NCBI RefSeq assembly: GCF_018678075.1
Contig: NZ_JAHHIR010000071.1
Coordinates: 1 to 64,000 of the forward strand
Direction: 5' to 3'
DNA: 64,000 nucleotides
Source: Epibacterium ulvae
GTDB lineage: Bacteria; Pseudomonadota; Alphaproteobacteria; Rhodobacterales; Rhodobacteraceae
The notes beneath the pieces are model-generated. The model ran no database searches. It worked only from the letters and a program-made list of their open reading frames with translations, and was not told the origin of the DNA. Both the position numbers and the translations under genes were made by a program. Shown here piece after piece: positions 57,347-60,192 of the stretch; within the stretch, counting starts at the first letter, position 1; each line of letters starts with the position of its first letter.

Positions 57347-57670
57347 ATGCAATTGCCTCCCAAAGTGACAGAACGGGCCTTTGAACGGCTGGCCGAAATC
57401 GGCGCCGCCTCCCAAGGGCAGGCGCTGCGCATTGCGGTCGAAGGCGGCGGCTGTTCGGGCTTTCAATATCAGATCGAACTGGACGCCCCTGCGGCCGAAG
57501 ACTTGGTGCTGGAAGGCAACGGCGAAAAAGTAGTGGTCGACAGCGTGTCGCTGCCATTTCTGGCCGATGCGGTTATCGATTTCACCGAAGAGCTGATCGG
57601 CGCGCGGTTTGTGATCAACAATCCAAACGCCACTGCAAGCTGCGGCTGCGGCACCTCGTTCTCGATGTGA
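57347..57670 (+). CDS. erpA: Iron-sulfur cluster insertion protein ErpA
   Basis: A 107-residue A-type Fe-S carrier. The three cluster-binding cysteines lie in GGGCSGFQY and SCGCGTSF. GGAGAG precedes the ATG. The divergent dgt neighbour and nearby xthA favour erpA over iscA. A nine-G run at 57675-57683 follows the stop. Confidence 0.92.
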   Translation: MQLPPKVTERAFERLAEIGAASQGQALRIAVEGGGCSGFQYQIELDAPAAEDLVLEGNGEKVVVDSVSLPFLADAVIDFTEELIGARFVINNPNATASCGCGTSFSM

Positions 57671-57699
57671 GCTTGGGGGGGGGCACGTCCGCCCGTCGC

Positions 57700-58755
57700 C
57701 TATGCCACGCGTCCGTTGCGCGCGAATGCTTCAAAGAAACGTTCGAAATGCGGCGAACCCTGCTCTGCACTGCGCAGCAGTTCGCCATCATCGGGTGATA
57801 GGGACGCCATAATCCGTGGCCTTGCCGCGCTCCAAGGCAGGCGCCCAAAATTTTCGTTGCTGAACATCACTTGTGACAGGGTACGCATCACCCCTTGTGT
57901 GCGCGCAGCCCGGATCATCATTGCACCGCCCGGAATGGTTGGCTCAAACCCGCCTCTACCTGCGAGCATGGCCCACCAGGCTCCGACAAAATACATGTGA
58001 TAGTCATCATGGTTGCCATCAAAGGCACCCGGAATGAACCGATAGCGTCGCATCGAGGCGGCCAGCGTATCTTCCCACAACTTAGGCACAGTGCTGCCCG
58101 CATAGCGCAACGCGATACACACCTCAGCCAAGAGATCCATGTTCTGATCCAAATAGGCCAGCGTACCAACGTGCCGCAGACTGACCAGCGCCGCGCCTGG
58201 CAGCTGCGGATCCTTACGACCATATTCCGACAGGTAAAACACAATATGTGTCAGCTCATATGCGATTTTGGTGTTAGGAATGGCAAATTGAGCGCTACAA
58301 TCGGTAAATGCCCGGAGCCGATCATTGAGGCCCATGTCATCCAAGGCGAGATTACGCCGTTTCAACAACCGATGAGCTTCGGCGCGTTGCAAATCTGACA
58401 GCTCGGCCTCGACTATATTTTCCTTCAATACCCATTGGGCGAGTTTTTCGGATTTTATTCCGGGATAGCCCAAGTCCTCCAAATCCATACATATCGACAG
58501 GTAGAACCGATAGTATTGGCGGAAGAACAAAAGTCGGCGATCTATGTCTTCATAAAAATTTTCGAATACATCCACGCAGTCTTTATCTATGTCGCCTGCG
58601 CATTCCAATATATTCAACAATTCCGCATTTTCCTTCAACCAGAAGACGTCACTCTCTTGCCTTCGGGAATTGCAGAATGAATCCAGAAGGATATCGGGCG
58701 TAGCTGCAATAGGGTGGCCTTGAACTCTGTCGCGTAAGAAAACAATATTTCCCAT
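57700..58755 (-). CDS. Uncharacterised 351-residue helical protein paired with a repeat peptide
   Basis: A soluble, mostly helical protein with no signal peptide or membrane segment. I do not recognise a family with confidence. Features seen: an aromatic-rich stretch at 76-90 (LFFRQYYRFYLSICM), a ELTHIVFYLSEYG motif with His170, a DDYHMYFVGAWWAML motif with His253, and an Arg/aromatic C-terminal end. The His-bearing helical motifs recall uncharacterised helical proteins found beside ribosomal peptide genes in actinobacteria, but that is memory, not evidence. The start at 58755 has GAGGG 4 nt upstream. It follows the repeat-peptide gene by 58 nt in the same direction. The 5-prime half is AT-richer than neighbouring genes, suggesting acquisition. 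A maturation, export or immunity role for the peptide is my inference. Confidence 0.85.
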   Translation of the reverse strand: MGNIVFLRDRVQGHPIAATPDILLDSFCNSRRQESDVFWLKENAELLNILECAGDIDKDCVDVFENFYEDIDRRLLFFRQYYRFYLSICMDLEDLGYPGIKSEKLAQWVLKENIVEAELSDLQRAEAHRLLKRRNLALDDMGLNDRLRAFTDCSAQFAIPNTKIAYELTHIVFYLSEYGRKDPQLPGAALVSLRHVGTLAYLDQNMDLLAEVCIALRYAGSTVPKLWEDTLAASMRRYRFIPGAFDGNHDDYHMYFVGAWWAMLAGRGGFEPTIPGGAMMIRAARTQGVMRTLSQVMFSNENFGRLPWSAARPRIMASLSPDDGELLRSAEQGSPHFERFFEAFARNGRVA

Positions 58756-58813
58756 CACACCCTCATATATGAATAGGATCTGCGCCAGGACATAACCCGG
58801 CGCAGAAAGTCGG

Positions 58814-59038
58814 TTAGCTGCCTGACGAAAACAGCATTACGGCTTCACCACTATGGGTTTGTGCCGAACAGGTTGGCGCAGAGCCTGAGGAGAACAATTC
58901 AGTTCTGCCACCACCAAACTCTGAAGTCGCATTTTCAACAATGGACCCTGATGAGAACAAAGACGCCCCCTCACCAGAAAACGCGTCCATTTTCGGTGCG
59001 CTGTTGTTCGAGAATTCTTGTTTTACTAAAGCAGTCAT
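58814..59038 (-). CDS. 74-residue peptide of three 21-residue repeats ending in LFSSGS (putative ribosomal peptide precursor)
   Basis: A short leader-like segment (residues 1-11, MTALVKQEFSN) is followed by three units of exactly 21 residues (12-32, 33-53, 54-74). Each ends in Leu-Phe-Ser-Ser-Gly-Ser, the last at the C-terminus, preceded by a Gly-rich spot (SGEGAS, FGGGRTE, HSGEAVM). The six repeated residues use different synonymous codons in each unit (Leu TTG/TTG/CTG, last Ser TCC/TCT/AGC), so the conservation is at protein level. One Cys (57) is present. ATG at 59038 has GGAGGT four nt upstream, an ideal site; an in-frame GTG at 59062 is possible. It looks like a precursor of a modified or secreted peptide, inferred. 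Confidence 0.82.
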   Translation of the reverse strand: MTALVKQEFSNNSAPKMDAFSGEGASLFSSGSIVENATSEFGGGRTELFSSGSAPTCSAQTHSGEAVMLFSSGS

Positions 59039-59385
59039 TTCGACCTCCACAATTTTAGCCACCCCTCAATTGCGTTTCAAAATGAGTAAATAATCAACAA
59101 GAAAAATTACGAGCCGCGGTTGGCGAATTCAGGGAGTGGCAATATCCACAAAATAAGTCACTAAAAATCATGATCGATTTAAACTTATGAATATTTAATA
59201 CATAACTTCTCAACAAGACAAAAATGCAAAGCTTGAATTGGAAAATGTTATACATCCTTAGATTGCCGCAATGCGGCAACAAACACCTCAGAGTTCGAAT
59301 CGCCGCTGAACGCGAAGCCGGGCTTGCCCAACCCCGCCGCATCGGCGATAGAACAACCAACCAGCCTTGATGCGGAGAGACCACT
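59039..59385. other. 347-nt AT-rich intergenic region between the peptide cassette and xthA
   Basis: No gene is seen. The region should hold the divergent promoters of the peptide cassette and of xthA. It is clearly AT-richer than the flanking core genes, especially 59070-59260. It contains a perfect palindrome at 59263-59279 (listed separately) and an RBS for xthA (GGAGAG) at its right end. Confidence 0.6.
59263..59279. promoter_or_regulatory. Perfect palindrome upstream of xthA and the peptide cassette
   Basis: TTGCCGCAATGCGGCAA is an 8-bp inverted repeat with a single central base, positioned 107 nt before xthA and 225 nt before the peptide gene. The shape suits a dimeric repressor operator; a small hairpin is the other option. 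Confidence 0.4.
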
Positions 59386-60192
59386 ATGAAAATCGCAACC
59401 TTCAACATCAACGGGATCAAGGCCCGCGTAAACGCGCTGCCAGAATGGCTGGACGAAGCACAGCCCGATGTCGTCGTTTTGCAAGAAATCAAATCCGTGG
59501 ACGAGGGTTTCCCACGCGAGATCTTCGAAGAGCGCGGCTATAACGTCGAAACCCACGGACAAAAGAGCTTCAACGGCGTCGCGATCCTCTCCAAACTGCC
59601 ACTCGAAGATGTCACGCTCGGCCTGCCAGGCGATCCAGAAGATGAACAGGCCCGCTGGATAGAAGCCACCGTTGTTGGCAAGACAGCCATTCGGATTTGC
59701 GGGCTTTATCTGCCCAACGGCAACCCGGTCGAACTCACCGCTGACGGCACCCCGGTGTCTGGTGGTAAATATGATTACAAACTGCTCTGGATGGCCCGGA
59801 TGCAGAAACGCGCCGAGGATCTGCTGTCGCAAGAGATGCCGTTTTTGATGGCCGGGGACTATAACATCATCCCGCAAGCCGAAGACGCCAAACGGCCAGA
59901 GGCCTGGCACGAAGACGCGCTTCACCGACCCGAAAGCCGCGCGGCTTATCAATGCCTGCTCAATCTTGGCCTGACCGAGGCGTTCAGAGCCCGTACTCAG
60001 GCCAGTGGCCACTACTCTTTCTGGGATTATCAAGCCGGGGCCTGGAACCGCGACGATGGCATCCGCATCGACCACTTCCTGCTCAGCCCGCAGGTGGCAG
60101 ACCTGTTGCGGGACTGCCAAATCGACAAAGAGATCCGCGGTCGGGAAAAACCCTCGGATCACGTGCCTGTTTGGGTCGACCTCGACATTTAA
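59386..60192 (+). CDS. xthA: Exodeoxyribonuclease III
   Basis: A 268-residue AP endonuclease/3-prime exonuclease for base-excision repair. Motifs: TFNINGIKAR, VVLQEIKSVD with the metal-binding Glu, NGVAILSKLP, DYNIIPQAED, and the terminal SDHVPVWVDLD with the catalytic His. A GGAGAG site lies before the ATG. Confidence 0.96.
   Translation: MKIATFNINGIKARVNALPEWLDEAQPDVVVLQEIKSVDEGFPREIFEERGYNVETHGQKSFNGVAILSKLPLEDVTLGLPGDPEDEQARWIEATVVGKTAIRICGLYLPNGNPVELTADGTPVSGGKYDYKLLWMARMQKRAEDLLSQEMPFLMAGDYNIIPQAEDAKRPEAWHEDALHRPESRAAYQCLLNLGLTEAFRARTQASGHYSFWDYQAGAWNRDDGIRIDHFLLSPQVADLLRDCQIDKEIRGREKPSDHVPVWVDLDI

Follow-up and report, generated by a model that had tools for sequence, protein, structure and literature searches.

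A widespread two-gene cassette of the Rhodobacteraceae pairs a tandem-core peptide with a DUF6902 protein and is likely a RiPP system

Introduction

Several known ribosomal peptides are encoded as multi-core precursors, in which a leader is followed by tandem conserved cores with variable spacer; cyanobactins, dikaritins, orbitides and yeast alpha-factor all follow this plan. The FxSxx-COOH cyclophane RiPPs have a C-terminal Phe-x-Ser-like ending and a radical SAM enzyme. Peptide epimerisation has been described for lasso peptides: the accessible part of one report presents MslH as a lasso-peptide epimerase with Ca(II), two His/Asp pairs and a calcineurin-like fold that acts on a C-terminal Trp (PMC10406935), and a further study, to which the accessible part of PMC13352647 refers, calls DUF6895 in its title a 'distinct' family of lasso-peptide epimerases (Shi et al., ACS Catal. 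2026). RiPP clusters with DUF692, P450 and S9 peptidases are described for Sulfitobacter in the accessible part of another source (PMC11278168).

Here we analyse a two-gene cassette in a 64,000-nucleotide stretch of DNA from Epibacterium ulvae (assembly GCF_018678075.1, contig NZ_JAHHIR010000071.1, positions 1 to 64,000), hereafter the window, in which a gene for a short repeat peptide is followed by a gene for a protein of the family DUF6902. The precursor consists of a leader and tandem cores, as in cyanobactins, dikaritins, orbitides and yeast alpha-factor, but its cores, leader and enzyme differ from theirs. Its ending is similar to that of the FxSxx-COOH cyclophane RiPPs, although the partner belongs to DUF6902/DUF6895 and not to the radical SAM enzymes, and the window peptide matches no Pfam family and no NCBIfam model. 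The DUF6895 lasso-peptide epimerase, as far as the accessible part of PMC13352647 describes it, represents a sister enzyme family, and all 68 of the 68 DUF6902 proteins scanned also match DUF6895; unlike that system, however, DUF6902 is paired with a precursor in which several cores of a different kind follow one another in tandem. Lasso systems combine a cyclase with a leader peptidase, and because neither occurs among the 11 window neighbours scanned, a lasso peptide was rejected as an explanation. The literature searched, including sources accessible in part, yielded no description of the peptide cassette and no assay of any DUF6902 enzyme or product.

Results

The repeat peptide and its conservation

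A preliminary description, made from the DNA letters alone, had divided the 74-residue product into 11 residues of leader and three 21-residue units ending in LFSSGS, the last of them at the C-terminus. All of these elements are present (Table 1), as are the good ribosome site that it had noted and the partner gene on the same strand, 58 nt away. The cassette had also been called AT-richer than its surroundings; this is true from the region upstream of the peptide gene through to the early part of the partner gene (GC 0.45 at 59000-59499, 0.47 at 58500-58999 and 0.52 at 58000-58499, compared with 0.57-0.62 in the surroundings) but not for the last part of the partner gene, where GC is 0.59 (57500-57999).

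Table 1 Features of the cassette in the window (positions are those of the window)
Feature	Position	Strand	Remark
DUF6902 protein (putative enzyme), 351 aa	57700..58755	(-)	Pfam match
Stem-loop between the two genes, 10-bp stem	58780..58805	(-)	z -3.99
Precursor-like peptide gene, 74 aa, leader and 3 repeat units	58814..59038	(-)	sequence
Repeat unit 3, 21 aa, core LFSSGS at 58817-58834, C-terminal	58817..58879	(-)	
Repeat unit 2, 21 aa, core LFSSGS at 58880-58897	58880..58942	(-)	
Repeat unit 1, 21 aa, core LFSSGS at 58943-58960	58943..59005	(-)	
Leader MTALVKQEFSN, 11 residues	59006..59038	(-)	M[TSN]A[QL]xK start seen again among relatives, where start picking partly favoured exactly that motif
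GGAGG ribosome-binding site of the peptide gene	59044..59048	(-)	5 nt before ATG
One-mismatch DnaA-box-like 9-mer TGTGGATAT	59142..59150	(-)	about 110 nt before peptide start

The three cores of the window differ in synonymous codons, as had been pointed out earlier (TTG TTC TCA TCA GGG TCC, TTG TTC TCC TCA GGC TCT and CTG TTT TCG TCA GGC AGC), so that at least here the identity of the core is kept by selection on the peptide and not by recent DNA copying. Comparison with L112, the nearest relative (partner 86% identical), gives 15 synonymous and 0 non-synonymous changes in the three cores, whereas the peptide outside the cores has 25.3 and 26.7; against L113 the values are 10 and 2 in the cores and 29.9 and 57.1 in the remainder. 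The contrast between core and remainder in both comparisons implies strong selection on the core and much weaker selection elsewhere, and the core changes against L112 bear out the earlier proposal that selection holds the repeat peptide sequence.

All 80 named loci, the top 80 among 286 relatives, have a repeat peptide upstream of DUF6902. In 157 unique loci from all sets, repeats were scored as 4-mers that recur exactly and in tandem at repeat spacing. At least three copies were found upstream in 145 of these loci but in none of 832 control stretches taken from the same loci, and at least two copies in 152 compared with 185 of the 832 controls; the loci are related, so that neither these counts nor those of the boxes reported below are independent. 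Seven of the 12 loci with fewer than three copies have two; the 12 also include L267 and L268, with two-copy peptides of wider spacing, and L060, which has N in that region. No repeat peptide was seen upstream in L094 and L111, the most divergent loci. The core-to-core spacing is 21 in 410 and 20 in 324 of 799 cases, and the number of units, whose variation had been named as a check in the preliminary description, ranges from 2 to 20 (median 7, 148 precursors). The co-occurrence of the two genes, named there as a further check, is also clear: a precursor query found the peptide in 28 of 29 genomes with DUF6902 and in 0 of 31 genomes without it, six of which (G295, G297, G298, G300, G302 and G304) were judged by a search for DUF6895 and the others by one for DUF6902. 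The single genome with DUF6902 that the query missed, G293, has SSTC cores. The small frame is thus conserved, its repeats are open and the two genes occur together, contrary to the ways in which the preliminary description had considered that the pairing might fail. In Roseovarius litorisediminis the DUF6902 frame is only 140 residues long (L160:8001-8423) though the match spans residues 1-348, and here the DUF6902 gene looks broken while the repeat peptide persists.

Core types differ between lineages, including SSGS, TSGS, TSWS, TSSL, SSTC, TTSC, TCGA, SSCS and others, and their residues are mostly Ser, Thr, Cys and Gly. About 38 types were distinguished in 150 precursors, with about 57 changes on a FastTree phylogeny of 150 labelled rows that has many open forks and in which the labels of L099, L267 and L268 were set by hand and L093 is mislabelled. 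Across 148 precursors, 983 of 1,015 units equal the majority core of their own precursor, an approximate figure because spacer or frame matches are counted and units without a preceding F, Y, V or M are missed; 22 of the 148 have at least one differing unit, some of them through spacer or frame matches and others being truly mixed. The clearest mixed precursors are those of three Ruegeria loci (L130, L145 and L183), which have FSSGS units at both ends and STSC cores inside. Close relatives can also differ in every unit together, as do L129 (TSGS, seven units) and L133 (SSGS, six units), and this concerted switching suggests that the core may be matched to a reader, enzyme or receptor.

The partner and its sister family

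The preliminary description had recognised no family for the 351-residue partner, which was mistaken: the protein matches Pfam DUF6902 (PF21843; E 1.7e-129, 432.2 bits against a gathering score of 27) and its sister DUF6895 (7.5e-23, 81.8 bits against 23.8). These are its only Pfam matches, and none is to a radical SAM family. A structure predicted with 68 sequences (alignment A1 comprises 67 of the 80 named loci and the window) is nearly all helical, with a mean pLDDT of 89.7 and a pTM of 0.89. Foldseek returned nothing for this model at E<=0.001, and a second structure comparison placed Rab geranylgeranyl- and farnesyltransferase chains at the top (Z 11.2-12.5), followed by terpene cyclases and complement C4b, although for helical models a Z below about 13 may reflect just a common arrangement. 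The top matches listed are mostly helical toroids, and an (alpha/alpha)6 fold like that of the protein prenyltransferase beta subunit and the terpene cyclases is a possibility. No Prenyltrans family is among the nine families listed for 68 DUF6902 members (E<=10), a PDB sequence search with the partner gave 0 matches, and no calcineurin-like row is among the structure matches listed, which in itself shows nothing. The fold comparison that had been put forward as a possible refutation therefore produced no match strong enough to name a housekeeping enzyme.

An alignment of the window protein with five other DUF6902 proteins and four DUF6895 proteins, the latter at 16-17% identity, has nine invariant columns (M1, Y166, H170, F173, G179, D207, E211, Y252 and H253), of which H170, D207, E211 and H253 are, judging from their conservation, candidates for a metal or acid-base centre. 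The residues Y, H, F, G, D, E and YH are in this way common to DUF6902 and the four DUF6895 proteins directly, and not by way of the published epimerase itself. The same four proteins adjoin small precursor-like genes, as DUF6902 does: in L244, L245, L247 and L207, which come from other families of the same phylum, the DUF6895 gene lies behind one or two small precursor-like ORFs with endings such as GPWFVL or NYVYKG, and three of the four loci have two unit copies (as two genes in L244 and within one frame in L245 and L247). That DUF6895 genes also pair with precursor-like ORFs supports a peptide-modifying role for the whole superfamily, and these small, often duplicated ORFs constitute a wider peptide family that is worth a look.

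Distribution and chromosomal site

The cassette is real and widespread in the Rhodobacteraceae. DUF6902 was found in 82 of 295 genomes of the family, a set with nearly one genome for each genus, and in 81 of the 294 genera; 80 of the 82 gave loci, the other two being the window's own genome and G139, which has a partial match at a contig start. It is present in 16 of 18 genomes of the window's genus. In a sample of the class, 4 of 385 genomes scored above the cut-off, each of them a member of the same family, and at the limits used DUF6902 was not found in 72,556 plasmids or 50,697 phages.

Among 147 unique loci with a neighbourhood, where flanking genes were named after those of the window, exonuclease III (xthA) lies divergently upstream in 136 and dGTPase is present in 130, with both in 120, and the cassette is mostly at one chromosomal place. 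In 22 of 30 genomes of the family that have no DUF6902, xthA has an erpA-type gene no more than 1.5 kb away; the gap is below 450 nt in 12 of these and 0.6-1.35 kb in 10, and the 12 shorter gaps look like the empty cassette site. The 11 neighbours scanned in the window (50.4-63.0 kb) encode exonuclease III, ErpA-type, dGTPase, ArgS, SPOR, glycosyl hydrolase 3, ScpA, ScpB, FAD-binding, DksA and AAA proteins. When the neighbouring genes of the other loci were clustered, none for a protease or an exporter proved constant in the cassette. A gene for an EamA-type transporter directly follows DUF6902 in 37 of the 147 unique loci, and in L192, L193 and L252 it begins at or near the DUF6902 end; at least 28 changes of state on the tree mark it as optional, and it is possible that it acts as an optional exporter.

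The intergenic stem-loop is strong in the window, L112 and L113, and perhaps sets the ratio of precursor to enzyme in the window. As a general feature of the family it was rejected (median z -0.64, with z below -2 in 23% of 141 stretches), as was an Rfam RNA element (0 matches).

DnaA-box-like sites before the peptide gene

The DnaA-box consensus is the 9-mer TGTGGATAA/TTATCCACA; the preliminary description had made no mention of such boxes in the promoter regions of relatives. The 400 nt before the peptide contain 127 perfect copies across 137 loci against 0.42 expected, with at least one in 75 loci and none in 62, and 143 loci together (2.2 Mb) contain 138. When up to one mismatch is allowed, a box lies within 300 nt at 100 of 137 loci, compared with 11 of 137 after shuffling. 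Two same-strand boxes start 76 nt apart (67 bp between) in 23 of 36 measured cases. The proximal box, measured in 50 cases, is 109.6 +- 5.0 nt away from the start of the peptide and 197 +- 70 nt away from xthA; as only boxes 85-135 nt before the peptide had been admitted, the selection by itself would keep the spread to about 14, and some peptide starts were set wrongly in the box measurements (e.g. L087 and L134). That the boxes belong to xthA was rejected, since the distance of the selected proximal boxes from the peptide start varies less than that from xthA and since no box was found upstream of xthA in any of the 30 genomes that lack DUF6902, 28 of which offered 1,497 nt or more of readable sequence.

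The window itself has no perfect box before the peptide. Its TGTGGATAT site stands where many relatives carry the perfect proximal box; taken alone it is not significant, as the 64 kb contain 11 sites with up to one mismatch and 7 are expected. Genome-wide, the same-strand pair occurs at six places in 20 genomes, five of which are the cassette: it is found there in 5 of 16 DUF6902 genomes, and the four genomes without DUF6902 have no pair. A second perfect pair in G141, outside the cassette (G141:C1:1867497-1867561), could mark oriC or a different target. Four genomes were found to have 15 to 25 single boxes each, a number similar to that of the reversed control; G141 and G200 have two of them at the cassette, and G055 has one.

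Given one or two perfect boxes in the promoter regions of many relatives, the cassette is probably expressed under the influence of DnaA or of a regulator that recognises the same site, and judging from these motifs the cassette is possibly under a DnaA-type promoter. E. coli DnaA favours box pairs 2-3 bp apart according to the accessible part of one report (PMC11317965), whereas the commonest pair at the cassette is 67 bp apart. A narrow literature search found no precedent linking a ribosomal peptide to chromosome replication.

Discussion

With moderate confidence, we read the cassette as a multi-core RiPP system in which a metal-dependent, helical DUF6902 enzyme epimerises the core and expression is probably coupled to DnaA or a regulator that shares its site. 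The precursor would consist of a leader and tandem units of about 20-21 residues, each ending in a short core, and DUF6902, predicted to be mostly helical and perhaps toroid-like, would be the one dedicated modifying enzyme; a metal ion is probably bound by its invariant His, Asp, Glu and His residues, and the enzyme would invert the alpha-carbon within or beside each core. The RiPP nature of the cassette is likely: it has a ribosomal precursor, a leader, a core under purifying selection and a dedicated, co-occurring partner gene. Adjacency, co-occurrence, repeat variation and selection on the core give strong support to the original proposal of a repeat peptide that is made ribosomally and has a dedicated partner; this partner would modify the peptide.

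Epimerisation is our best single guess and is made by analogy, being the only function that we have seen reported for the DUF6895/DUF6902 superfamily; the report, accessible in part, concerns the sister family DUF6895. The metal-dependent acid/base epimerisation with His/Asp described in the accessible part of the MslH report (PMC10406935) is the same chemistry as we propose for DUF6902, but MslH is calcineurin-like and acts on a C-terminal Trp whereas DUF6902 is predicted to be mostly helical, so that any likeness would be one of mechanism and not of descent. A different and perhaps metal-dependent core reaction, such as hydroxylation, dehydrogenation, crosslinking or cleavage, would involve the same enzyme family and precursor logic. 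We consider this somewhat unlikely: the cores, mainly Ser, Thr, Cys and Gly, and the restriction of the epimerase link to the sister family in the part of the source accessible are compatible with it, but epimerisation is the one function reported in the sources as accessed, and no second conserved gene is constant in the cassette.

One may also postulate an unmodified, disordered repeat protein that binds its partner, for example as a replication-coupled regulatory or toxin-antitoxin pair, which would agree with the DnaA-like boxes in the promoter region of many relatives and with the inconstancy of exporter and protease genes. This appears quite improbable given that the sister family has a reported peptide-modifying member (in a source accessible in part) and that the cassette keeps a chromosomal site with both flanks in most loci, while the plasmid and phage collections hold no match. 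Precursors with 2 to 20 repeats and near-identical cores are also unlike the antitoxins known to us. A defence or toxin-antitoxin system was rejected as first choice on the evidence of the plasmids and phages and of PADLOC, which gave no match. An interpretation of the small frame as a random or degenerating ORF, for which its shortness, its repetitiveness and its lack of Pfam or NCBIfam matches might speak, has a negligible probability in view of the controls, none of which had three tandem copies, the synonymous/non-synonymous contrast and the co-occurrence with DUF6902.

Returning to the epimerised multi-core RiPP, its most likely role would be that of a lineage-specific signal or self-recognition peptide. 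A bolder form of this idea, unlikely to hold in full, is that replication-coupled multi-core D-amino-acid peptides serve as lineage signals of the Rhodobacteraceae, with as many as 20 identical cores in one precursor that switch together and form a recognition code for a receptor, and that they represent a new class of RiPP.

Although DUF6902 occurs in 81 of 294 sampled genera of the family, no paper naming it was found in the literature searched. The cassette is small enough to fit on one plasmid, and nature offers precursors with 2-20 cores and dozens of core variants; it would tell whether a two-gene peptide-epimerase system exists outside the lasso peptides. The boxes in its promoter region suggest that chromosome replication and a ribosomal peptide may be connected, and, as the sister family includes a reported peptide epimerase, the cassette points to an unstudied class of modified ribosomal peptide in the Rhodobacteraceae.
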